Assembly: GCF_900143515.1 (NCBI RefSeq)
Contig: NZ_FSQT01000002.1
Coordinates: 248,001-312,000 of the forward strand
Source of the DNA: Micromonospora cremea
GTDB lineage: Bacteria > Actinomycetota > Actinomycetes > Mycobacteriales > Micromonosporaceae
DNA: 64,000 nt
Reading direction: 5' to 3'
This document shows positions 49,626 to 64,000 of this stretch, in pieces. The notes beneath the pieces were generated by a model. That model did not search any database. It had not been told where the DNA came from and was given only the letters and a program-made list of their open reading frames with translations. Every line of letters begins with the position of its first letter. The stretch's first letter is position 1. The translations under genes and the position numbers were made by a program.

Positions 49626-50057
49626 CTACAGACCGCCGGGCAGCACCCCCTCCTCGATGTCGGCGAAGTCGTCTTCGCTCTCGGCGAGGTAGGTCTCCCA
49701 GGCGACCCGGTCCCAGATCTCCACCCGCGTGCTCGCGCCGATCACGACCAGGTCGCGGTCGAGCGCGGCGTACGCCCGCAGGTGGGCCGGGATCGTCACC
49801 CGGCCCTGCTTGTCCGGCACCTCGTCGTGCGCGCTGGCGAAGAAGACCCGGCTGTAGGCCCGGGCCGCCTTGTGCGTCATCGGCTGCGCGCGCAACTGCT
49901 CCGCGATCCGCTGGAACTCCGGGGTCGGAAAGACGTAGAGGCAGCGCTCCTGCCCTTTGGTGATCACGACACCCCCCGCCAGCTCGTCCCGGAACTTGGC
50001 CGGAAGGATCAACCGGCCTTTGTCGTCCAGGCGCGGAGTGTGGGTGCCGAGAAACAC
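49626..50057 (-). CDS. mraZ: Transcriptional regulator MraZ
   Basis: A 143-residue double AbrB-like protein. Both DxxGR motifs are present: [18 protein letters not shown] and [18 protein letters not shown]. MraZ forms rings that bind direct repeats upstream of its own gene and represses the dcw operon. The GTG at 50057 follows a GGGGG-rich ribosome site. Three GTGG repeats at 10-bp spacing overlap its promoter. Confidence 0.97.
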
Positions 50058-50142
50058 GGCCCTACCCCCTCGCCCTTAAGCGGCGTTCGCGGCGCCGCTG
50101 ACCCCCCGGGCCGGTGAGCCCTCCCGGCCTCACCATTGGGCC

Positions 50143-50172
50143 CCACTCTACTCCACTTCCCTCCACCTGCAA
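50143..50172 (-). promoter_or_regulatory. mraZ promoter overlapped by three MraZ boxes
   Basis: On the minus strand TTGCAG (50172-50167), 16 bases and TAGAGT (50150-50145) form the promoter. GTGG occurs at 50166-50163, 50156-50153 and 50146-50143, exactly 10 bp apart, as GTGGAGGGAA, GTGGAGTAGA and GTGGGGCCCA. Known MraZ operators are TGG-containing direct repeats with 10-bp period, so autoregulation is likely. Confidence 0.85.
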
Positions 50173-50228
50173 CCAGAATCGACCGCGTGGCGCGCCCGAT
50201 CCGTGGGCAAAACCGCACGTCAAAAGGG

Positions 50229-50242
50229 GTGGAGCGGAGTGG
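50229..50242 (+). promoter_or_regulatory. Second pair of GTGG repeats in opposite orientation
   Basis: On the plus strand GTGGAGCGGA and GTGGAGGGCC start at 50229 and 50239, again 10 bp apart, about 60 bp from the mraZ array and pointing toward murT. They have the same core as the mraZ boxes, but only two copies are present. The other bases of this 339-bp divergent gap show only the promoters. Confidence 0.5.
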
Positions 50243-50383
50243 AGGGCCACGGCCGTCGCCCGGCGTGGTCCGCTTTCCGACATAGATCGACTCCGTCCGG
50301 TGGACGCCGACCTGGCCGCCCGCGTCCGCGCCACAACCGAACGGTTCGCCGTCGGCGGCGATCTGGTGGGGCGGGCGGTCCGG

Positions 50384-50389
50384 TAACCT
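50384..50389 (+). promoter_or_regulatory. -10 hexamer for leaderless murT
   Basis: TAACCT lies seven bases before the murT GTG at 50397 with no Shine-Dalgarno. No -35 consensus is visible. Confidence 0.65.
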
Positions 50390-50396
50390 CGCTCGC

Positions 50397-51659
50397 GTGA
50401 CGGACGCGAAAATGCCCCTACGGGCCAAGGTGGCCAGCTCCGTGTCCCGGACTGCCGCGGCGCTCTCCCGGGCGGCCGGCCGTGGCGACGGTTCGGTGAT
50501 CGGCGGGTGGATCGGCCTGAAGATCGACCCGGACCTGCTGGCCCACCTGTCGGCCGGGCGCGCCATCGCGCTCGTTTCCGGCACCAACGGCAAGACCACC
50601 ACCACCCGGCTGGCCGCCGCCGCCGTCGGCGTGCTCGGCCGGGTCGCCACCAACTCCTTCGGCGCCAACATGCCCAGCGGGCACACCTCGGCGCTGGCCA
50701 AGGCCGGCAGCACCCCGTACGCGGTGCTCGAGGTCGACGAGCACTACCTCGCCCAGGTGCTGGAGGCGACCGAGCCGCACGTGGTCGCGCTGCTGAACCT
50801 CTCCCGCGACCAGCTCGACCGGGCCAAGGAGGTCGCCATGATGGCGCAGCTCTGGCGCGCGGCGCTGGTCCGGCACACCGACGTGCGGGTGGTGGCCAAC
50901 GCCGACGACCCGCTGGTGGTGTGGGCCGCCACCCCGCCGGCCGACCCCGCCAACGGCATCCACCCGCCGCACGTGACCTGGTTCAGCGCCGGCCAGCGCT
51001 GGCACGACGACTCCTGGGTCTGCCCCGAGTGCGGCTCCACCATCCAGCGCTCCGGCGACCAGTGGTGGTGCACCGGCTGCGCGCTGCGCCGGCCGGAGCC
51101 GCAGTGGATCGTCGAGGACGAGGGCGTGCTCGACCCTACCGGCGCCTGGCACAAGGTCTCCCTCCAACTGCCCGGCAAGGTCAACCTCGGCAACGCGGCG
51201 ACCGCGCTGGCCGTGGCCGCCGAGTTCGGCGTCCGCCCGGTCGACGCGGTGTCCCGCCTCGGCATCGTCACCTCGGTGGCCGGGCGCTACGCGCAGGTGG
51301 ACAAGGACGGGCGCAACATCCGGCTGCTGCTGGCCAAGAACCCGGCCAGTTGGCTGGAGGCCTTCGACATGGCCGACGAGGCGCCCACCCTGCTCTCCAT
51401 CAACGCGCGCGACCCCGACGGGCTGGACACCTCCTGGCTCTTCGACGTCGACTTCGCCCCGCTGCGTGGCCGGCAGGTGCTGATCACCGGCGACCGGGCG
51501 TACGACCTGGCGGTCCGACTGGACGTCAACGACGTGCCGTTCCAGCACGTGCGCACGTTCGACGACGCGATCCGGTCGGTCCCGCCGGGGCGGCTGGAGG
51601 TCATCGCGAACTACACCGCGTTCCAGGACATCCGAGCGGAGTTGGACCGTGTCAACTGA
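50397..51659 (+). CDS. murT: Lipid II isoglutaminyl synthase, MurT subunit
   Basis: A 420-residue Mur-ligase-like protein. The P-loop is SGTNGKTTTT with K66; a C4 zinc ribbon C209-x2-C212 ... C225-x2-C228 interrupts the central domain, as in S. aureus and mycobacterial MurT. The C-terminal DUF1727 domain ends FQDIRAELDRV. With GatD it amidates D-Glu at position 2 of the lipid II stem peptide. It diverges from mraZ and overlaps gatD by 11 bp. Confidence 0.96.
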   Translation: MTDAKMPLRAKVASSVSRTAAALSRAAGRGDGSVIGGWIGLKIDPDLLAHLSAGRAIALVSGTNGKTTTTRLAAAAVGVLGRVATNSFGANMPSGHTSALAKAGSTPYAVLEVDEHYLAQVLEATEPHVVALLNLSRDQLDRAKEVAMMAQLWRAALVRHTDVRVVANADDPLVVWAATPPADPANGIHPPHVTWFSAGQRWHDDSWVCPECGSTIQRSGDQWWCTGCALRRPEPQWIVEDEGVLDPTGAWHKVSLQLPGKVNLGNAATALAVAAEFGVRPVDAVSRLGIVTSVAGRYAQVDKDGRNIRLLLAKNPASWLEAFDMADEAPTLLSINARDPDGLDTSWLFDVDFAPLRGRQVLITGDRAYDLAVRLDVNDVPFQHVRTFDDAIRSVPPGRLEVIANYTAFQDIRAELDRVN

Positions 51660-52368
51660 GAGCCTGCGCATCGTCTGGATCTACCCCGACCTGCTCTCCA
51701 CCTACGGCGACCGGGGCAACGCCCTGATCCTCGCCCGACGGGCGCGCCAGCGCGGCATGCCGGTCGAGGTGCTGGAGGTCCGCTCCGACCAGCGGCTGCC
51801 CGCGACCGCCGACATCTACCTGGTCGGCGGCGGCGAGGACGGTCCTCAGGCGCTGGGCGCGCAACGTCTGATCGCCGACGGCGGCCTGCACCGCGCGGTC
51901 GCCCAGGGCTCGGTGGTGTTCGGCGTCTGCGCCGGCTACCAACTGCTCGGCACCTCCTTCTTCGCCAAGGGCGTGCAGTGCCGCGGCCTGGAGCTCCTCG
52001 ACCTGCAGTCCGACCGGGGCTCGAGCCGGGCCGTCGGCGAGCTGGCCGGCGAGATCGATCCGCGGCTGGGCCTGCCCGCGCTGACCGGTTTCGAGAACCA
52101 CGGCGGCCGCACCCACCTCGGCCCGGAGGTCGCGCCGCTGGCCCGGATCACCGCCGGGGTCGGCAACGACGGCAGCACCGAGGGCGCCTGGCGCGGCAAG
52201 CTGCTCGGCACCTACTCGCACGGCCCCGCACTGGCCCGCAACCCCGCCCTGGCCGACCTGCTGCTGCGCTGGGCCACCGGCGCGCACCAGCTCCCGCCGC
52301 TGGACGACACCTGGTCGGACCGGCTCCGGAGCGAGCGCCGCGCCGCAGTGGCCGCCGCCCGGGCATGA
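51649..52368 (+). CDS. gatD: Lipid II isoglutaminyl synthase, glutaminase subunit GatD
   Basis: A 239-residue CobB/CobQ-type glutamine amidotransferase. The nucleophile is C94 in VVFGVCAGYQLLG and the catalytic histidine H191 in GTYSHGPAL. IVWIYPDLLSTYGDRGNALIL at the start is the GatD signature. It passes ammonia from glutamine to MurT. Its stop overlaps the start of the next gene (ATGA). Confidence 0.95.
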   Translation: MSTESLRIVWIYPDLLSTYGDRGNALILARRARQRGMPVEVLEVRSDQRLPATADIYLVGGGEDGPQALGAQRLIADGGLHRAVAQGSVVFGVCAGYQLLGTSFFAKGVQCRGLELLDLQSDRGSSRAVGELAGEIDPRLGLPALTGFENHGGRTHLGPEVAPLARITAGVGNDGSTEGAWRGKLLGTYSHGPALARNPALADLLLRWATGAHQLPPLDDTWSDRLRSERRAAVAAARA

Positions 52369-53054
52369 TCCGGGCCGTCCGGCGGCTGCTCCGGCAGCCG
52401 CCGGCCGCCCGGTTCGCCCTGCTCGTGCTACTGATCGGCCTCTGCGCGCTGCTGGTGCTCCTGGCACCCCGGCCGGATCCGGCGCAGTTGCCGCAGCTGG
52501 CTGACCAGCTCGGCGACCTCGCCCCGCTGACGGCGATCCTCGGCGGCGCGCTGCTGCTGGTCGCGTTGGTCCCCCGGACGTTCATCACGCTCGCCGCGGG
52601 CGCGATCTTCGGTCCGCTGGAGGGCGCCGCGTACGCCCTGGGCGCCGCGCTGGTGGCGGCGGCGGTCGGGTTCACGGTCGGCCGGCTGCTCGGCCGGGAG
52701 TTCGTCGCCGAGCGGGTCCGTGGCCGGCTGGCCCGCCTGGACGGCTGGTTCGCCCGGCAGAGCGTGCTCGGCGTGGTCACCGTCCGGCTGCTGCCGATCG
52801 CCGGCTTCGGACTGGTCAGTTACGGCTACGGCACCACCGGCGCCCGGGTGCTGCCGTTCCTCGCCGGCAGCGTGATCGCCTCCGCCCCGACCGCCTTCGG
52901 GTACGCCGCGATCGGTGCGGCGGTCACCTCCCCCGGCCACATCAACTGGTACGCCGCAGCCCCCGCCAGCCTCGGCCTGATCGCCAGCGTGGTGCTGATT
53001 TCCCAGTGGTGGCGCGCCGAGCGGCAGCGCCGCTCGGCGCTGAGCCGACCATGA
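52365..53054 (+). CDS. TVP38/TMEM64 (DedA-like, VTT domain) membrane protein
   Basis: A 229-residue membrane protein with five to six helices. GALLLVALVPRTFITLAAGA, FGPLEGAAYALGAALVAAAV and VRLLPIAGFGLVSYGYG match VTT/SNARE-associated proteins, some of which move undecaprenyl phosphate or other lipids across the membrane. Being overlapped with gatD and the next gene, it may serve cell-wall lipid carrier recycling; that is inference. Confidence 0.85.
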   Translation: MIRAVRRLLRQPPAARFALLVLLIGLCALLVLLAPRPDPAQLPQLADQLGDLAPLTAILGGALLLVALVPRTFITLAAGAIFGPLEGAAYALGAALVAAAVGFTVGRLLGREFVAERVRGRLARLDGWFARQSVLGVVTVRLLPIAGFGLVSYGYGTTGARVLPFLAGSVIASAPTAFGYAAIGAAVTSPGHINWYAAAPASLGLIASVVLISQWWRAERQRRSALSRP

Positions 53055-53842
53055 GCGGGCCCGACCTGCCCGACCTGCCCGGCGAGCAGCGGCTCGCCGG
53101 CGGCTTCGTCGCCGAGGTGGTCCGGGTCGGCGACACGGTCCGGCGTACGCCACCGGCCAACCTGGACTTCGTCGGCGCGCTGCTGCACCACCTGGACCGG
53201 GTGGGCGCGGACCTCGCGCCCCGCTACCTGGGCGTCGACGCCCACGGCCGGCAGATGCTCAGCTACGTGGCGGGTCGGGTGCCGTGGCGGGACCGGGAGG
53301 ACCCCGCCTTCTTCGCCGACCCGGCGCTGGTGCGGCTGGCCGAGCTGATCCGACGTCTGCACGACGTCTGTGCGGGCACCCCGCTGGCCGGCGACGCCGA
53401 GACCGTGTGCCACCGCGACCTGTCTCCGAAGAACACGGTGTACCGGGACTTCCCGGCCGGGCCGCTGCCGGCGACCTTCCTCGACTGGGATCTGGCCAGG
53501 CCGGGCCGACGGATCGAGGACGTGGCGTTCGCTGGCTGGCACTGGGCGGCGTTGGGCGAGGGCGCCGACCCGACCGAGCTGGGCCGACGCTGCCGCGTGC
53601 TCTGCGACGCCTACGACGCGGTGTCCACCGCACCCGTCCGGACGGCACTGCCCCGCGATGAGCTGGTGGACGTGATGCTCCGGCAGATCGAGAGCACCTG
53701 GCGGAGCATCGACGCCGGCGCCGACCGCGACGAGCCGGGCATGCGCCGGCTACGCGACCTGGGCGCGGTCGAGGGGGTACGCCGCTGGCAGGACTGGCTG
53801 CTCACCCACCGCCCCGCCGTGCTGGCGGCGTTGACCGCCTGA
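53051..53842 (+). CDS. Aminoglycoside phosphotransferase-like kinase
   Basis: A 263-residue APH/choline-kinase fold protein. The catalytic loop is VCHRDLSPKNTVY and the metal-binding DFG-equivalent is TFLDWDLARPG. No clear glycine-rich loop is seen at the N-terminus. The start at 53051 (MSGPDLPDLPGEQR) overlaps the preceding stop as ATGA. Families like this include antibiotic, sugar and small-molecule kinases; resistance should not be assumed. Confidence 0.85.
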   Translation: MSGPDLPDLPGEQRLAGGFVAEVVRVGDTVRRTPPANLDFVGALLHHLDRVGADLAPRYLGVDAHGRQMLSYVAGRVPWRDREDPAFFADPALVRLAELIRRLHDVCAGTPLAGDAETVCHRDLSPKNTVYRDFPAGPLPATFLDWDLARPGRRIEDVAFAGWHWAALGEGADPTELGRRCRVLCDAYDAVSTAPVRTALPRDELVDVMLRQIESTWRSIDAGADRDEPGMRRLRDLGAVEGVRRWQDWLLTHRPAVLAALTA

Positions 53843-53865
53843 GGCGGTGCCGCACGTCGAACGAC

Positions 53866-53935
53866 CGGCGTGCCGCGCTTGGCGACGGCGGCTCGCCGCC
53901 CGGCGGAGACGACGGCGTGCCGCGCCCGGCGACGG
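53866..53935. repeat. Imperfect 23-bp direct repeat
   Basis: CGGCGTGCCGCGC-TT-GGCGACGG at 53866-53888 recurs with CC for TT at 53913-53935 (21 of 23 identical), period 47 bp. It lies between the kinase stop and the palindrome at 53946. The intervening 24 bp read GCGGCTCGCCGCCCGG-like palindromic DNA. No gene is seen. Confidence 0.75.
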
Positions 53936-53945
53936 ATGCGCCGGA

Positions 53946-53993
53946 GAGCGTTATGACTCAGAGGTATAAATATGCCTCTGAGTCATAACGCTC
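53946..53993. terminator. Perfect AT-rich 19-bp palindrome between convergent genes
   Basis: GAGCGTTATGACTCAGAGG (53946-53964) and CCTCTGAGTCATAACGCTC (53975-53993) are exact reverse complements around TATAAATATG, which itself largely self-pairs. The 48-bp unit is far more AT-rich than its surroundings. It sits between the kinase gene and leuS, both of which read toward it, so a bidirectional terminator is the simple reading; a protein-binding site is also possible. Confidence 0.7.
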
Positions 53994-54078
53994 GTTACCG
54001 CGTCCGCCGCCGTCGACGTCACGCCGCGTAGCGCGCCCGCCGGTCACCCACCGTCGCCCCCTGATCGTCAGGGCACTG

Positions 54079-56919
<2,841 letters not shown>

Positions 56920-56981
56920 CGTCTCTCCTCGCTTCGCTTCGCTTCGTCTCGGCGCCACCGGGCCGGGCCGGCGACGGGCAC

Positions 56982-57007
56982 AAAAAAGCCCCTCGCGCAG
57001 GAGGGGC
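56982..57007 (-). terminator. Intrinsic terminator in the leuS leader (attenuator)
   Basis: On the minus strand GCCCCTC (57007-57001), loop CTGCGC, GAGGGGC (56994-56988), then TTTTTT (56987-56982). It is the only classical U-tract terminator I find in the window, and it stands 62 bp before the leuS start, after a leader peptide. Confidence 0.85.
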
Positions 57008-57008
57008 C

Positions 57009-57043
57009 GCCGTGCTGTCGCGCGTTCAGCGCATCAGCACGGC
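57009..57043 (-). promoter_or_regulatory. Leader hairpin next to the leuS attenuator
   Basis: RNA arms GCCGUGCUG (57043-57035) and CAGCACGGC (57017-57009) give a perfect 9-bp stem. The first arm is formed by the last codons and stop of the leader peptide, so a translating ribosome would disrupt it. The exact antiterminator pairing is not resolved; the hairpin abuts the terminator with one base between. Confidence 0.65.
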
Positions 57044-57072
57044 CCGGTAAGAAGCAGGAAAGCTCCGGCCAT
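57034..57072 (-). CDS. leuS leader peptide, 12 aa with three Leu codons in a row
   Basis: ATG-started frame encoding MAGAFLLLTGPC and stopping at TGA. The three leucine codons are CTG CTT CTT; CTT is rare in this GC3-rich genome, which would heighten stalling when leucyl-tRNA is scarce. It lies between a -10 hexamer and the leader hairpin/terminator in front of leuS. No Shine-Dalgarno is present, consistent with leaderless translation. Confidence 0.75.
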   Translation of the reverse strand: MAGAFLLLTGPC

Positions 57073-57079
57073 GTCCGGC

Positions 57080-57085
57080 AGTGTA
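57080..57085 (-). promoter_or_regulatory. -10 hexamer for the leuS leader transcript
   Basis: On the minus strand TACACT is followed by seven bases (GCCGGAC) and the leader-peptide ATG at 57072. The transcript would begin at or next to that ATG. Confidence 0.65.
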
Positions 57086-57133
57086 CCTCGCCGCCAGGCC
57101 CGGCGATGTGCCCGCCACCAGGCAGCGGAACGG

Positions 57134-57283
57134 TCACCCGGCGGCGGCGAGCCGGGCCCGCCGTCCACCGGCGCCGGCCGCCACATCGACGTGGTCGGCG
57201 TGCAGGCGCCACTGTGCCGCGCCGCCGCCGAGCCGTACTCCGCCGTCGTCGGTCTCCCCGTAGATGTCCCGCTCCCGCCTCAC
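57134..57283 (-). CDS. 49-aa hypothetical protein upstream of leuS
   Basis: A small frame of 49 codons (N-terminus MRRERDIYGETDDGGVRLGG, C-terminus GGRRARLAAAG) with almost all third positions G or C. The GTG at 57283 is preceded by GGGAGGGCGCT, a strong ribosome site at correct spacing, which makes it more than a chance frame. It is charged, without membrane segments. It ends 48 bp before the leuS leader -10. I do not recognise it. Between it and the moxR start (275 bp) I see only a CCGGATATCCGG palindrome (57341-57352). Confidence 0.6.
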   Translation of the reverse strand: MRRERDIYGETDDGGVRLGGGAAQWRLHADHVDVAAGAGGRRARLAAAG

Positions 57284-57558
57284 AGCGCCCTCCCGGGGTT
57301 CCTCGCCGCGCCGATCGGACTGCTCACGCGGACCGGCACGCCGGATATCCGGGGGCGAGAAGGTCACGCATCCCTCGACTTGGCGAATATCGGTGCGTAA
57401 CCGACGGACTACCTGCGGGGGTCGGCGATAACGACAAACATGGTTAGCCTGAGAGGCCAATGAGATTTCTGCGGCAAACGAGGCTCGACGTCGCGAACCC
57501 AACGGCGGGTCCAGGTGCTCTCTATAGAGCTGCCGTGACACCGACGAGGAGGAGGCCC

Positions 57559-58611
<1,053 letters not shown>

Positions 58612-58612
58612 C

Positions 58613-59911
58613 GTGCGTGCCGGGCTGCGCGGGCTGACCACCCGCGGGCGCTCGTTCCTGGCCGCCGCGGTCGCGGCGGCGATCTCGGCTGGCATCCTGG
58701 GCGAGAAGGACCTGCTCCGGGTGGCCGTGCTGCTGGGCATCCTGCCGCTGCTGGCCGCCGCCTACGTCGGGCGCAGCCGCTACAAGCTGGCCTGCAACCG
58801 GTCCCTGGATCCGCACCGAGTCCCGGTCGGGGCCAACTCCCGGGTGGTGCTGCGCCTGCAGAACCTGTCCCGGCTGCCGACCGGCACCCTGCTGCTGGAG
58901 GACCGGCTGCCCTACGCCCTGGGCAGCCGGCCCCGGGTGGTGCTGGAGCGGCTGGGAGCGCACCAGGCCAGCTCGGTGGCGTACACCGTGCGGGCCGACG
59001 TGCGGGGCCGCTACGACGTGGGCCCGCTGGTGGTCCGGATGACCGACCCGTTCGGTCTCTGCGAGCTCAGCCGGGCGTTCCCCAGCACCGACCACCTGAC
59101 GGTCATCCCGCAGGTCACTCCGCTGCCGTCGGTCCGGCTCCCCGGGGAGTACGCGGGCAGCGGCGACAGCCGGGCCCGCTCGGTGGCGGTGCACGGCGAG
59201 GACGACGCGGCGACCCGGGAGTACCGGCGCGGCGACGACCTGCGCCGGGTGCACTGGAAGTCCACCGCGCGCACCGGCGAGCTGATGGTGCGCCGCGAGG
59301 AGCAGCCCTGGGAGAGCCGGGCCACGGTCGTGCTGGACACCCGCGCGTACGGCCACCGCGGCGACGGTCCGACGGCGAGCTTCGAGTGGGCGGTCTCGGC
59401 CGCCGCGAGCATCGCGGTGCACCTGCGGCAGGCCGGCTACAAGCTGCGCCTGGTCACCGGTTCGGGGGTCGACGTGGACGCCTCGGAGGCCGGCGGCGAC
59501 GGGGCGCTGCTCGACCACCTCGCCGAGGTCCGGCTGGACCAGCGGGCCGAGGTGACCAGCCTGGTGCAGCGGGTCCGGCAGCGCTCCGACGGCGGTCTGA
59601 TCATCGGGTTGTTCGGCGCGGTGAGCGTGGCAGAGGCCGAGGTGCTGGCCGGGCTTCGGGGCAACGGCGCCACCTGCGTCGGCTTCCTGCTCAACAGCTC
59701 CACCTGGCTCAGCCTGCCCGAGAAGGCCCGGGCCGAGGCGGAGCACGCGCACGGCGCCGCCGTGCTCGCCATGCTGCACAGCGGCTGGCGGGTGGTCGGC
59801 GTCGACCACGGCAGCCGGCTGCCGGTGCTCTGGCCGCAGGCTGGCCGGGGCTCCCAGGGGTTCGCCCTGCGCGCCGCGCTGGCCGAGACGGTCGCCGGCG
59901 GCGTGCGATGA
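58613..59911 (+). CDS. DUF58 domain protein
   Basis: A 432-residue protein. Two N-terminal hydrophobic segments (about 12-28 and 36-50) precede an extracytoplasmic beta-rich part. GEDDAATREYRRGDDLRRVHWKSTARTGELMVRREEQPW is the DUF58 core, and a von Willebrand A-like region follows. It starts one base after the moxR stop. It probably works with the MoxR ATPase on envelope proteins; the mechanism is unknown. Confidence 0.92.
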   Translation: MRAGLRGLTTRGRSFLAAAVAAAISAGILGEKDLLRVAVLLGILPLLAAAYVGRSRYKLACNRSLDPHRVPVGANSRVVLRLQNLSRLPTGTLLLEDRLPYALGSRPRVVLERLGAHQASSVAYTVRADVRGRYDVGPLVVRMTDPFGLCELSRAFPSTDHLTVIPQVTPLPSVRLPGEYAGSGDSRARSVAVHGEDDAATREYRRGDDLRRVHWKSTARTGELMVRREEQPWESRATVVLDTRAYGHRGDGPTASFEWAVSAAASIAVHLRQAGYKLRLVTGSGVDVDASEAGGDGALLDHLAEVRLDQRAEVTSLVQRVRQRSDGGLIIGLFGAVSVAEAEVLAGLRGNGATCVGFLLNSSTWLSLPEKARAEAEHAHGAAVLAMLHSGWRVVGVDHGSRLPVLWPQAGRGSQGFALRAALAETVAGGVR

Positions 59912-59927
59912 ACGGAAGGTTCCCCTC

Positions 59928-62402
59928 ATGATCGCCAGTCGGAACATCGGCCCGGTGGCGGCCGCCGCCACCCTCCTCGCCGCCGCGCCGCTGTCGGCCA
60001 TCTTCGAGACCTGGACGTGGCTCATCCAGTCCACGATCGCGGTCGCGGTGGTGGCCGGGGTCGCCGCGCTGACCCGGCTGATCCGGGCGCCGCTGTGGGG
60101 TCAGGTCCTCGGCATGCTGGCCGCCCTGGTGCTCGCCCTGACCTGGCTGTTCCCCAGCGGCGGGGAGCTGCTCACCTTCCTGCCCACGCCGGGCACCTTC
60201 GGGCACTTCGCCGACCTGTTCACCGGCTCCATGCAGGACATGCGCTCGTACGGCGTGGAGGTACCGGACACCGACCCGCTGCTGTTCATCACCGTGCTGG
60301 GCGTCGGCGGGGTGGCCGTACTGGTGGATGTGCTGGCGGTGGGTCTGCGCCGGCCCGCGCTGGCCGGGCTGCCGATGCTCGCCATCTACTCGGTGCCGGT
60401 CGCCGTCTACGTCAACAGCGTCCCCCCGGTGCCGTTCGTGGTGGGCGCCGCCGGGTACCTCTGGCTGCTGGTCACTGACAACGTCGACCGGGTCCGCCGG
60501 TTCGGCCGCCGGTTCACCGGCGACGGCCGCGACGTCGACGTGTGGGAGGCCTCGCCGCTGGCCTCCGCCGGCCGCCGGCTCGCGGTGGTCGGGGTGGCCA
60601 TCGCCGTGGCGCTGCCGCTGGCCGTGCCGGGCATGACCGGCGGGCTGCTCGACACGCTCGGCGGCGGTACGGGCAACGGCAACGGCAGCGGCCGGGCGGG
60701 TGCGGGCTCAACGGGCCGGATCGACCTGTTCGCCTCGCTCGCCGGTCAGCTCAACCAGTCCGAGGTGGCGGACCTGGTCAAGGTGACCACGTCCGAGCCG
60801 AGTCCGTTCTACCTGCGCTACGCGGTCGCGGACGAGCTGCGCCCGAACGGGTTCCAGGCGCGCAACCCCAGCGGCCGGCCGGTCAACCGGGACCTGCCGG
60901 ACCCGACCGAGCGGGCCGGCCCGGGCGTCCAGCAGACCCACTACCGGGCGACCGTCGAGGTCACCAAGAGCCTGAGCATGTCCCTGATGCCGGTGTACGC
61001 CGAGCCGGTGCGCACCGAGGACCTCAACGGCAACTGGCTCTACGACCCCAACCAGCAGGTCGTCTTCTCCAACCGGGACAACTCCCGGGGCAAGAAGTAC
61101 TCCTTCGACTACATCCGTTCGACGTACACGCCGGCGGCGCTGCGGGCCGCACCGCCGCTGCCGGCCGACCACCCGGTCAGCCGGCAGCTGACCGCCACTC
61201 CCGGGCCGGTGCCCGAGGTGGAGGAGCTGGTCCAGGGTCTGGTCCAGGGCAAGCGCACCGACTACGACCGGGTGCTGGCGATCTACCGGCACTTCTCGGC
61301 GGACAACGGGTTCAGCTACCGGCTCAGCACCGAGAGCGGCAGCAGCGGCGAGGACATCGTCAACTTCCTGACCAACAAGGTCGGCTACTGCCAGCAGTAC
61401 GCCGCGGCGATGGCCTGGCTGGTGCGCAGCGCCGGCATCCCGGCCCGCGTGGCGTTCGGGTTCACCAACGGCAGCAAGCAGGACGGCAACACCTACACGC
61501 TGACCAACCTCAACCTGCACGCCTGGACCGAGGTCTACTTCGACGGGGTCGGCTGGGTGCCGTTCGACGCCACGCCGTCGTACGGTGTGCCGGGCTCCAC
61601 CCGGTCGGCCTGGGCACCGGACACCGACGTGCCGGAACCATCCACCACGAACCCCGGCGCCACGGACACCGCGCCGGGCCCCGACGCGTCCGCCGGTCCG
61701 ACCGACCGGGACAACGCCGACCGGGACACCGACTCGGGGCTCTCCCTCGCCGGCGAGGCGCCGGCCGAGCAGTCGCCGGTGTGGCCCTGGTGGACGGCGG
61801 GCCTGCTGGCCCTGCTGGCACTGCTGGCGGTGCCGGCCCTGCGTCGGCTGGCGCTGCGCCGCCGGCGGGGTGGCCGGGCGGCTGGCGCCGCGATGGCCGC
61901 CACCCGGAACGACGCCGCACCGGTGGACGGGGCGCGTGTGGTGGTGATCGCGCCGGACGCCAACCGGGCCCGCGCGGACGCGCACGCCGCCTGGGCGGAG
62001 CTGCTCGACACGCTGGTGGACTTCAAGGTCCGGGTCGACCGGACCGAGACGCCCCGGGCGACCGCGGACCGGCTGGTCCGGGAGACCTTCAGCGATGACA
62101 CCGCGGCGGTCGGCGCGGCGCGGCTGCTCGGCCGGGCTGAGGAGCGGGCCCGCTACGCGCGGGATCCGCTGACCGGTGAACCGCTGGTGCCGGCTCTGCG
62201 CGCGGTCCGCAGGGCGCTCGCCGCCCGGGCGGGCCGACGGACCCGACTGCTCGCCGCCGTGCTGCCGCCGTCGGTGCTGCTGCGCTGGCGGACCGCCCTG
62301 GCGGACACTTCCGGCCAGATGGTGGCGCTGACCGGGCGGGCCCGGTACCGGCTGCTCCGCTGGAATCCGCGTCGGCTGCTGGCCGACCGGGCGGCCCGCT
62401 GA
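59928..62402 (+). CDS. Transglutaminase-like membrane protein (TgpA-type)
   Basis: An 824-residue protein. The N-terminal helices (about five to six within residues 5-235) are the TgpA/DUF3488 region. The extracytoplasmic transglutaminase core has the C488-H531-D547 triad in GYCQQYAAAMAWLVRSAGIPAR, NLNLHAWTEVYF and WVPFDATP. A further helix near 615-640 and a cytosolic DUF4129-type tail end it. The ATG follows GGAAGG. It completes the moxR-DUF58-transglutaminase operon; the substrate is unknown, and peptidoglycan or surface protein is likely. Confidence 0.92.
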   Translation: MIASRNIGPVAAAATLLAAAPLSAIFETWTWLIQSTIAVAVVAGVAALTRLIRAPLWGQVLGMLAALVLALTWLFPSGGELLTFLPTPGTFGHFADLFTGSMQDMRSYGVEVPDTDPLLFITVLGVGGVAVLVDVLAVGLRRPALAGLPMLAIYSVPVAVYVNSVPPVPFVVGAAGYLWLLVTDNVDRVRRFGRRFTGDGRDVDVWEASPLASAGRRLAVVGVAIAVALPLAVPGMTGGLLDTLGGGTGNGNGSGRAGAGSTGRIDLFASLAGQLNQSEVADLVKVTTSEPSPFYLRYAVADELRPNGFQARNPSGRPVNRDLPDPTERAGPGVQQTHYRATVEVTKSLSMSLMPVYAEPVRTEDLNGNWLYDPNQQVVFSNRDNSRGKKYSFDYIRSTYTPAALRAAPPLPADHPVSRQLTATPGPVPEVEELVQGLVQGKRTDYDRVLAIYRHFSADNGFSYRLSTESGSSGEDIVNFLTNKVGYCQQYAAAMAWLVRSAGIPARVAFGFTNGSKQDGNTYTLTNLNLHAWTEVYFDGVGWVPFDATPSYGVPGSTRSAWAPDTDVPEPSTTNPGATDTAPGPDASAGPTDRDNADRDTDSGLSLAGEAPAEQSPVWPWWTAGLLALLALLAVPALRRLALRRRRGGRAAGAAMAATRNDAAPVDGARVVVIAPDANRARADAHAAWAELLDTLVDFKVRVDRTETPRATADRLVRETFSDDTAAVGAARLLGRAEERARYARDPLTGEPLVPALRAVRRALAARAGRRTRLLAAVLPPSVLLRWRTALADTSGQMVALTGRARYRLLRWNPRRLLADRAAR

Positions 62403-62485
62403 GCGACGTCCGTCCGGCTTGCGGGGCGGCGGTCCACGAGGCCGTCGCCCCGGGCCGATCCTGCTCTCCGCCGCGCCGCGCCCCC

Positions 62486-62545
62486 TGATCGCTTGATCCG
62501 GGTAGTCGCCAGAAGCCGCACGGACCTGCCCAGCATCAAGTGATC
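62486..62545. repeat. Near-perfect inverted repeat with TGATC ends
   Basis: TGATCGCTTGAT at 62486-62497 and ATCAAGTGATCA at 62534-62545 pair over 12 bp with one G-U, enclosing 36 bp. Being AT-richer than its surroundings and downstream of a gene, it may be a terminator or remnant of a mobile palindrome. Confidence 0.5.
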
Positions 62546-62616
62546 ATGGGCGCGAGGTGACGCGCCGCGCGAGGCGGGCGGGTGGGTGCTGGAGTCGGTG
62601 CGCGGCCTGCGGCCGT

Positions 62617-62656
62617 TGAGCGGCGGGGCAGACGGCTGAGCGGCGGGGCAGACGGC
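62617..62656. repeat. Perfect 20-bp tandem duplication
   Basis: TGAGCGGCGGGGCAGACGGC occurs twice in direct succession at 62617-62636 and 62637-62656. No gene spans it. It could expand or contract by slippage and would be a strain marker. Confidence 0.9.
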
Positions 62657-62762
62657 GTTCGCCCATCATGCGACGGGCACGCGGATACGTCAGCGGTCGC
62701 CGGGGCTGTGCCCGGCGACCCGCTCGTCGCGGCGTACGGCCCGCCTCAGCGGCGGGACCGGC

Positions 62763-63161
62763 TCAGCGGTGCCCCTCCGGGCGCTGCCGCCACCTGTCCT
62801 CCATGCGGTCCAGGATCGACGGCCGGCGACCGGATCGGCCGCCGCGTGGACGACGGCGGCTGGTCGTGCCCCCCACCACGTGCAGGTCGGGTGACTGCGC
62901 CCGCCGGTGCGACTGCACCGCGAACGCGGCCGAGGCCAGCATGACGACAAAGCCCGCCACCGCCAGCGGTGGAGTCTTGATCACCGCGCCATAGACCAGT
63001 AGAGCCAAGCCAGCGATGATCACGCCGGCGGCGACGAGCAGGCGACGCCGCGCGTGGAAGCGCGGATCGCTGGCGCGCACGGCCGAGGCGAATTTGGGGT
63101 CCTCGGCAAGCGACCGCTCGATCTGCTCGAACAGCCGCTGCTCGTGCTCCGAGAGCGGCAC
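62763..63161 (-). CDS. DUF3040 membrane protein
   Basis: A 132-residue protein starting MPLSEHEQRLFEQIERSLAE, the DUF3040 signature, with two helices at about 40-58 and 66-84 and a basic C-terminal tail. The GTG at 63161 has GGGGAGGAG ahead. These proteins are common in actinobacteria, near dinB and the mraZ/dcw region in several genera. Function unknown. Confidence 0.92.
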   Translation of the reverse strand: MPLSEHEQRLFEQIERSLAEDPKFASAVRASDPRFHARRRLLVAAGVIIAGLALLVYGAVIKTPPLAVAGFVVMLASAAFAVQSHRRAQSPDLHVVGGTTSRRRPRGGRSGRRPSILDRMEDRWRQRPEGHR

Positions 63162-63277
63162 GGCACTCCTCCCCGGTCACGTTGGTCGGGCCCACTCGGG
63201 CCGACAGACCGTGGCAGCCATCCGGCTGCTTACCCGCAAGTCTACGAGGGGGGTCGCGCGTCGGAAAGCGGGACGAC

Positions 63278-64000
63278 CTACGGGTGGGGTGGATTTTCGT
63301 TTCGACGGGGGTCACGGTCGCCCAGCAGACTGGCCGGACCTATGACGGACCGCCCGAATCGGGCAGCAGCGGCGTCCGCGGCAGCTTCCGCCTCACGCCA
63401 GCCACGCTCGGGCGCGCCGAGGGTGAGCTGTCGGGGCGCACCCTGTGCCGGGGCGAGCCCCTCCACCCGGACACCGACGAGTCGGATCCGCTCGCCCGGG
63501 TCCAGGGCGGTGTAGAGCGCCCAGACCGTGTCGAACATCTCGCGGGCCGTGTCGGTGGGCGCGCCGAGGGTGCGGGACCGGTTGACGGTGCGGAAGTCGG
63601 CCAGCCGCACCTTGAGCGTCACGGTGCGCCCCACCTGCCCGGAGCCCCGTAACCGGACGCCGACCTTCGCGCTGAGCGCCAGCAGGGCGCGGCGGATCTC
63701 CACCGGGTCGGCCACGTCGGCGTCGAAGGTCACCTCGGCGCCGATCGACTTGTCGACGTGCTCGGGGCTGACCCGGCGCGGGTCCCGCCCCGAGGCCAGC
63801 TCGTGCAGATGCGCCGCCGACGCCGCACCCACCGCACGGCGGAGCATGCCCACCGGTGCGTCGGCGAGGTCGCCGACGGTGGCCAGGCCGAGCCGGCGCA
63901 GCGTCTCGGCGGCGCGCTCCCCCACCCCCCAGAGCGCGTCCACCGGCAGGGGGTGCAGGAAGTCGAGCACCTGACCGGGGGGCACGACCAGCAGGCCGTC
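63278..64000 (-). CDS. dinB: DNA polymerase IV (DinB), C-terminal part, truncated by window edge
   Basis: The 240 visible residues begin within the palm/thumb (DGLLVVPPGQVLDFLHPLPV) and continue through the helix-hairpin-helix WGVGERAAETLRRLGLATVG to the little-finger domain (EVTFDADVADPVEIRRALLA, VTLKVRLADFRT). The Y-family catalytic acidic residues lie beyond 64000. It is an error-prone translesion polymerase. The C-terminal tail lacks an obvious QLxLF beta-clamp motif except perhaps RQLTLG near residue 207 of the visible part. Confidence 0.93.
   Translation of the reverse strand, partial: DGLLVVPPGQVLDFLHPLPVDALWGVGERAAETLRRLGLATVGDLADAPVGMLRRAVGAASAAHLHELASGRDPRRVSPEHVDKSIGAEVTFDADVADPVEIRRALLALSAKVGVRLRGSGQVGRTVTLKVRLADFRTVNRSRTLGAPTDTAREMFDTVWALYTALDPGERIRLVGVRVEGLAPAQGAPRQLTLGAPERGWREAEAAADAAAARFGRSVIGPASLLGDRDPRRNENPPHP

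Follow-up and report, generated by a model that had tools for sequence, protein, structure and literature searches.

The leuS gene of Micromonospora cremea is preceded by a leader that, in our estimate with a probability of roughly 0.9, is a ribosome-mediated transcription attenuator raising leuS when charged leucyl-tRNA is short. By gene and layout, this leader is a real and conserved member of a type already reported in Streptomyces, and on sequence grounds it is a conserved leucine attenuator of leuS in the class. An attenuator whose switch consists of two hairpins lying flush with each other (P1 and the terminator hairpin T) is probably the best explanation of the whole. The window that we analyzed is a stretch of 64,000 nucleotides (contig NZ_FSQT01000002.1, positions 248,001 to 312,000), for which a first-pass annotation had proposed a leucine leader-peptide attenuator with a leaderless peptide in front of leuS. 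All its elements and coordinates on the minus strand were correct when read against the sequence (Table 1). The observation is thus confirmed and its interpretation partly supported: conservation, start-codon geometry and covariation argue for the attenuator and its leaderless peptide, while the novelty claimed for it and the classical layout that it implied did not hold.

TABLE 1 Features of the leuS leader and its surroundings, in coordinates of the window
Feature	Position	Strand	Remarks
-10 element TACACT	57080..57085	-	read from the sequence
Leader ORF (putatively leaderless) MAGAFLLLTGPC	57034..57072	-	12 codons, ATG at 57072, TGA at 57036-57034
Control codons CTG CTT CTT	57049..57057	-	Leu run inside the leader ORF
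Spacer of 5 nt, last Leu codon to P1	57044..57048	-	
Hairpin P1	57009..57043	-	5' arm 57043-57035, 3' arm 57017-57009; covariation
Terminator hairpin T	56987..57008	-	stem plus G-U pair 57008/56987; covariation
U tract of the terminator	56982..56987	-	six T
leuS, leucyl-tRNA synthetase (proposed regulated gene)	54079..56919	-	NCBIfam leuS_bact, 6.3e-267
MoxR-type AAA ATPase gene	57460-58611	+	divergent upstream neighbor
ORF just upstream of the leader	57134-57565	-	no Pfam match
Next minus-strand ORF	57409-58248	-	antisense to the ATPase gene

On the minus strand, the leader ATG follows the TACACT hexamer after 7 nt. P1 is a 9-bp hairpin with the arms GCCGTGCTG and CAGCACGGC, the first of which contains the end of the peptide and part of its stop codon, and T has a 7-bp stem (GCCCCTC, 57007-57001, with GAGGGGC, 56994-56988). 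Counting the basal G-U pair, the T stem begins at the base directly after P1, so that the two hairpins are flush, and the U tract ends 62 nt before the leuS ATG. The window was scanned for the full combination (TANNNT, 5 to 8 nt, ATG or GTG, an ORF of 7 to 20 codons with LLL, and a GC stem with a T run), and the only match was the leuS leader; 60 first-order Markov windows contained a mean of 2.65 mini-ORFs with promoter geometry and none with LLL. Start sites below 56982, which would have spoken against the first-pass annotation, are disfavored, as no -10-like TANNNT was seen by eye between T and leuS in the window and the motif occurs there at only 2 of 142 loci. The divergent ATPase gene, the ORF without a Pfam match and the ORF opposite the ATPase gene leave no likely upstream gene for the terminator to end; most likely it serves the leuS transcript. 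No Rfam covariance model matched the leader at E ≤ 1 (searched in window positions 50000 to 64000) or any of eight leader loci at E ≤ 0.1, so that a known element such as a T-box was not encountered there; a Virus-PTE match at 51130-51184 was rejected as far below its gathering score.

The leader is widespread, if unevenly distributed, in the class. A strict pattern matched 37 of 150 genomes of the family and its reversed control none, and a covariance model built from 30 sequences with 16 pairs found leaders in 192 of 394 class genomes and 85 of 137 genera at E ≤ 0.01, with this one model covering the leuS leaders of both Micromonospora and Streptomyces. Among 80 named leuS loci, the leader ORF was present in the right geometry in 46 and absent in 34 (including Mycolicibacterium, Rhodococcus, Gordonia, Corynebacterium, Dietzia and Actinomyces), and at the same threshold the model recovered none of these 34. 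In lineages lacking the leader (L051, L053, L057, L065 and others), leuS itself often starts, by eye, some 6 to 7 nt after a TANNNT, as if its mRNA were leaderless. We assembled 154 loci from 80 regions with model matches (picked for family diversity), 18 of 30 loci, 55 earlier ones and the window, which is counted twice (also as L116); 148 of the 154 are distinct in their first 40 nt. LeuS is encoded downstream in 152 of them, the exceptions being a contig end (L161) and a cimA leader (L200). Two groups of LeuS carry the leader, with 92 loci at 60% identity or more to the LeuS of the window and 60 below 45%. Genome G356 has two divergent leuS genes (L127 and L183; 41% and 71% identity to that of the window), each with its own leader. 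Two matches of the first model (L271 and L273) were, by eye, plainly not leaders.

The position of the start codon is almost invariant. It lies 6 nt (102 loci), 7 nt (48), 8 nt (1) or 9 nt (1) after a TANNNT in 152 of the 154 loci, hence at 6 or 7 nt in 150, and is ATG in 110 leaders and GTG in 42; the two loci without this geometry are a contig end (L148) and L200. As the promoter falls outside the covariance model, the geometry constitutes independent support. The 148 distinct leaders share the upstream consensus TGCGnTANNNT without a conserved -35. Transcription would be expected to begin at or beside the leader AUG, with ribosomes loading on the leaderless end.

An LLL or LL run is found in 146 of the 148 distinct leaders; this conservation is partly conditioned, since the model by which the loci were selected includes the Leu columns. 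The run ends in CTT in 132 leaders, in CTC in 13 and in CTG in one. The earlier remark that CTT is rare in this genome is borne out, with one CTT among the 287 Leu codons of five ORFs of the window and 28 among 4,377 (0.64%) in the downstream leuS genes. CTC and CTT together make up 300 of the 429 codons of the Leu runs versus 507 of 4,377 in the leuS genes. Both are read by the GAG isoacceptor, and because of this common isoacceptor the leader may listen to a single tRNA. The Leu run with its rare final CUU would be the sensor of tRNA charging. The leader, some 100 nt long, would then be a compact switch and, with CTT closing the run in 132 of 146 leaders versus 0.64% of the Leu codons in leuS, a clean example of sensing through a rare codon. 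The starts and ends of the peptides vary among leaders.

Both hairpins are supported by covariation. In the alignment of 30 sequences, 94.0% of the P1 and T cells were paired and 22 cells were changed on both sides, values reached by none of 500 shuffles, although the count of further pair types was ordinary (reached by 140 of 500); slid controls paired at 40 to 57%. Column pairs were also ranked over 143 distinct sequences. The seven that covaried most strongly fell within P1, T or an outward extension of T; pair eight (L14 with U3) and some weaker pairs fell outside, and no stacked alternative helix covaried in this set. Of 152 leaders, 143 contain the covarying intrinsic terminator downstream of the leader ORF and ahead of the gene, and 142 contain P1. 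The lack of conservation that would have weighed against the first-pass annotation is thus not what is observed, as the Leu codons, the hairpin and the U tract are all kept in relatives. Spacing is conserved as well: the distance from the last Leu codon to P1 is 5 nt in 103 of 142 leaders and 2 to 5 nt in 140, and the gap between P1 and T is 0 nt in 66 and between -2 and 3 nt in all 142, in a search open from -2 to 8 nt. The span of P1 ranges from the 10-to-19-nt bin to the 60-to-69-nt bin, and the stop codon begins between -2 and +23 nt from the start of P1, most commonly at +7 (84 leaders). The ribosome unwinds mRNA at +11, counted from the P site. For a ribosome stalled with the last Leu codon in its A site, this point coincides with the first P1 base in 101 of 140 leaders; in 37 it is 1 to 3 nt inside P1 and in 2 upstream of it. 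Judging from this edge and the placement of the stop codon, P1 should remain wholly or almost wholly closed while a ribosome is stalled, and should be opened once the ribosome has reached the stop codon.

A classical attenuator would also contain an antiterminator that captures the 5' arm of T. Equilibrium folding from successive 5' ends was not diagnostic, since the terminator mostly won, as it also did in the E. coli trp control, and it was replaced by folding the RNA before the 3' arm of the terminator is made, with a ribosome mask placed at the last control codon. In 140 distinct leuS leaders, the capture measured in this way had a median of -0.09 kcal/mol (interquartile range, -0.57 to -0.05) and exceeded -5 kcal/mol in four (L026, L027, L029 and L039). 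The controls gave -9.3 kcal/mol at best for E. coli trp and -9.4 to -14.8 kcal/mol for all six Streptomyces trp leaders (WWW; L278 to L281, L283 and L284). These six came from a tightened pattern (15 places, 12 of them loci); a first pattern had yielded two matches in one of 15 genomes, neither a trp leader by eye. With the mask at the stop codon, the leuS median (-1.94) lay within the range of the trp controls (-1.2 to -3.0). P1 and T have no base in common in 128 of the 140 leaders, one in 9 and two in 3, whereas the Streptomyces trp antiterminator shares 7 nt with its terminator; mutual exclusion of the trp type through shared bases was accordingly not found in these 140. With the ribosome at the stall position, P1 and T form together at 0.8 or more in 131 of 140 leaders. 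When full-length RNA is folded, the terminator likewise prevails in five of the six Streptomyces trp controls, so that co-formation alone is a weak argument and it is the shared-base count and the early-transcript scan that carry it.

Other candidate pairings were rejected by eye. The Leu codons or the T arm could pair with the leuS ribosome-binding site, where CTCCT is present, but the sites vary; a helix between the 3' arm of P1 and the loop of the terminator (CRCGG/CTGYG) fails because R and Y disagree in the window and several relatives. A conserved TGYG pause site in the terminator loop became weaker in the wider set.

We propose that P1 takes the place of the antiterminator and acts by abutting the terminator rather than by sharing bases with it, a reading to which we give slightly less than an even chance. 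When leucine is short, the ribosome would stall on the Leu run, which ends about 5 nt short of P1, and P1 would stay closed; being flush with T, it would keep the base of T from zipping in the RNA exit channel and thus lead to read-through. When leucine is plentiful, the ribosome would move on to the stop codon, located within or beside the P1 5' arm, and so open P1, and T could form. In the Streptomyces trp leader, the 5' arm of the antiterminator likewise lies between control codons and stop, the same place as the P1 5' arm, and the description of Mycobacterium tuberculosis ilvB1 has the antiterminator masked when a ribosome occupies the stop codon (PMC13236596). These parallels, with a stop codon expected to open P1, make P1 best read as a stand-in for the antiterminator, and the absence of a base shared with T in most leaders points to action by abutting the base of T. 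That a closed hairpin touching a terminator can block termination is suggested by physical reasoning; a literature search for hairpins acting sterically on a terminator gave no support among the matches listed. Also counted against the proposed switch are the four leaders with capture beyond -5 kcal/mol, the eighth covarying pair, which stands alone, and codon substitutions upstream of ilvB in Streptomyces coelicolor that were reportedly without effect (PMC1262725).

That the leader instead attenuates in the classical way, with an antiterminator excluding T by a short or unusual pairing missed by the folding scan, seems unlikely to us. Such an arrangement would fit the antiterminator and terminator hairpins stated for two Streptomyces leuS genes (PMC1262725), the 1 or 2 nt common to P1 and T in 12 of 140 leaders, the four leaders with capture beyond -5 kcal/mol, and the ilvBNC operon of Corynebacterium glutamicum, which operates with a shared boundary of 3 nt (PMC11857589). 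However, an overlap of 3 nt is absent from the 140 leaders, the median capture is negligible beside that of the trp controls, no stacked alternative helix covaries, and seven Streptomyces leuS leaders keep P1 and T together at 0.97 or more. Folding, covariation and the shared-base count thus all failed to reveal the base-sharing antiterminator implied by the first-pass annotation. A further possibility, which we also consider improbable, is that P1 is a helper or pause hairpin that times the polymerase or strengthens T, and that a stalled ribosome weakens P1 and gives read-through. P1 does precede T in all 142 leaders where both were found, and the ribosome footprint, reaching about +15, would cover part of P1 during a stall; with unwinding at +11, however, the stalled ribosome would only touch P1. 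In S10, a hairpin upstream of the terminator is reportedly required for L4-mediated attenuation control, and adjacent hairpins have been treated as termination sites when they come in pairs. The latter treatment (PMC8355165), like the S10 case, favors the helper and points against the flush switch. The location of the stop codon in or next to the P1 5' arm argues the other way, since a helper would then be open just when termination is wanted. Very unlikely, in our view, is a constitutive terminator, with the leader RNA or peptide acting elsewhere and leuS without a leucine response. Trans roles have been reported for the attenuator peptide peTrpL of Sinorhizobium meliloti (PMC7298713), but here leuS has Leu codons in its leader and cimA has Ile codons (see below), rare codons end both runs, a cognate-codon logic that such a terminator would not need, and the ends of the peptides vary.

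The first-pass annotation knew of no leuS leader with a leaderless regulatory peptide in this group. Nevertheless, classical attenuators were predicted at leuS of Streptomyces avermitilis and S. coelicolor in 2005 (PMC1262725, BMC Microbiol), and the 2021 reannotation of Streptomyces lividans TK24 reports leuL2 (MRAVRLLLSEPR), a leaderless peptide of 12 residues upstream of leuS, followed by a hairpin and a uridine stretch (PMC8079986). The M. cremea leader agrees with these in the gene, the LLL peptide of about 12 residues, leaderless start, hairpin plus terminator and match to the covariance model, and it has all the features of leuL2, namely a Leu-rich leaderless peptide followed by a hairpin and a terminator immediately before leuS. 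It departs from the classical description of Streptomyces leuS in that the base-sharing antiterminator was not found, Streptomyces leaders included. The LEU element of actinobacterial leuA is different: it is described as a pseudoknot with a base stem formed between the Leu codons and the ribosome-binding site of leuA (PMC1262725), whereas here there is a terminator. The nearest experimental case that we found is C. glutamicum ilvBNC, with a start codon beside the transcript start, hairpins base to base and CUU among the control codons; it differs in having three nucleotides common to antiterminator and terminator and a third hairpin, against none in common in 128 of our 140 leaders (PMC11857589). 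The Streptomyces and E. coli trp leaders also have a peptide with control codons and an intrinsic terminator, but they differ in a strong antiterminator that uses the 5' arm of the terminator. In the sources consulted, what is known of the tuning of actinomycete leucyl-tRNA synthetase to leucine comes from a few Streptomyces, in the form of predictions and RNA-seq annotation. Further cases may be listed in a comparative paper of 2010, which reportedly deals with attenuation of amino acid and aminoacyl-tRNA operons. What this analysis adds is the reach of the leader across the class, its CTT signature, the negative outcome of the antiterminator test, the flush spacing of the hairpins and the recurrence of the layout at cimA.

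This recurrence emerged from weak second matches of the leuS model, which led to leaders of cimA (citramalate synthase) with Ile runs, for example ATC ATC ATT. At E ≤ 0.001, a cimA-leader model gave matches, leuS cross-matches among them, in 173 of 246 class genomes, with one site in the M. cremea genome outside the window (L319, G000:C2:3553911-3553990, plus strand), and CimA is encoded downstream in 73 of 82 loci examined (among them L257 to L263, L265 to L270, L272, L274 to L276 and L289 to L300). We analyzed 52 of these leaders, after 18 had failed the promoter-spacing rule and three were set aside as duplicates. The gap between P1 and T was -1 to 3 nt in 49 of 51, in loci picked by a model that contains both hairpins, and the last Ile codon lay 3 to 6 nt from P1 in 45 of 51. 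ATT was the last codon in 36 of 52 versus 66 of 1,023 Ile codons within cimA, and median capture was -0.58, with one of 52 beyond -5. A literature search on attenuation and isoleucine leaders in Actinobacteria gave no mention of citramalate synthase among the matches listed. We suggest, quite tentatively, that actinomycetes use a separate "flush-hairpin" attenuation, in which an antiterminator without common bases would lie directly against the terminator, about 5 nt behind the rare cognate codons of a leaderless mini-ORF, and which would recur at leuS (Leu), cimA (Ile) and some ilvB genes. The question raised is whether a hairpin touching a terminator, with no base in common, can stop it from working. 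Leaders with Val or Leu codons and the same layout (L330, L344, L349 and L356) were also seen before acetolactate synthase-like (ilvB-like) genes, and acetolactate synthase was confirmed by family search at two of these four loci (L330 and L356).
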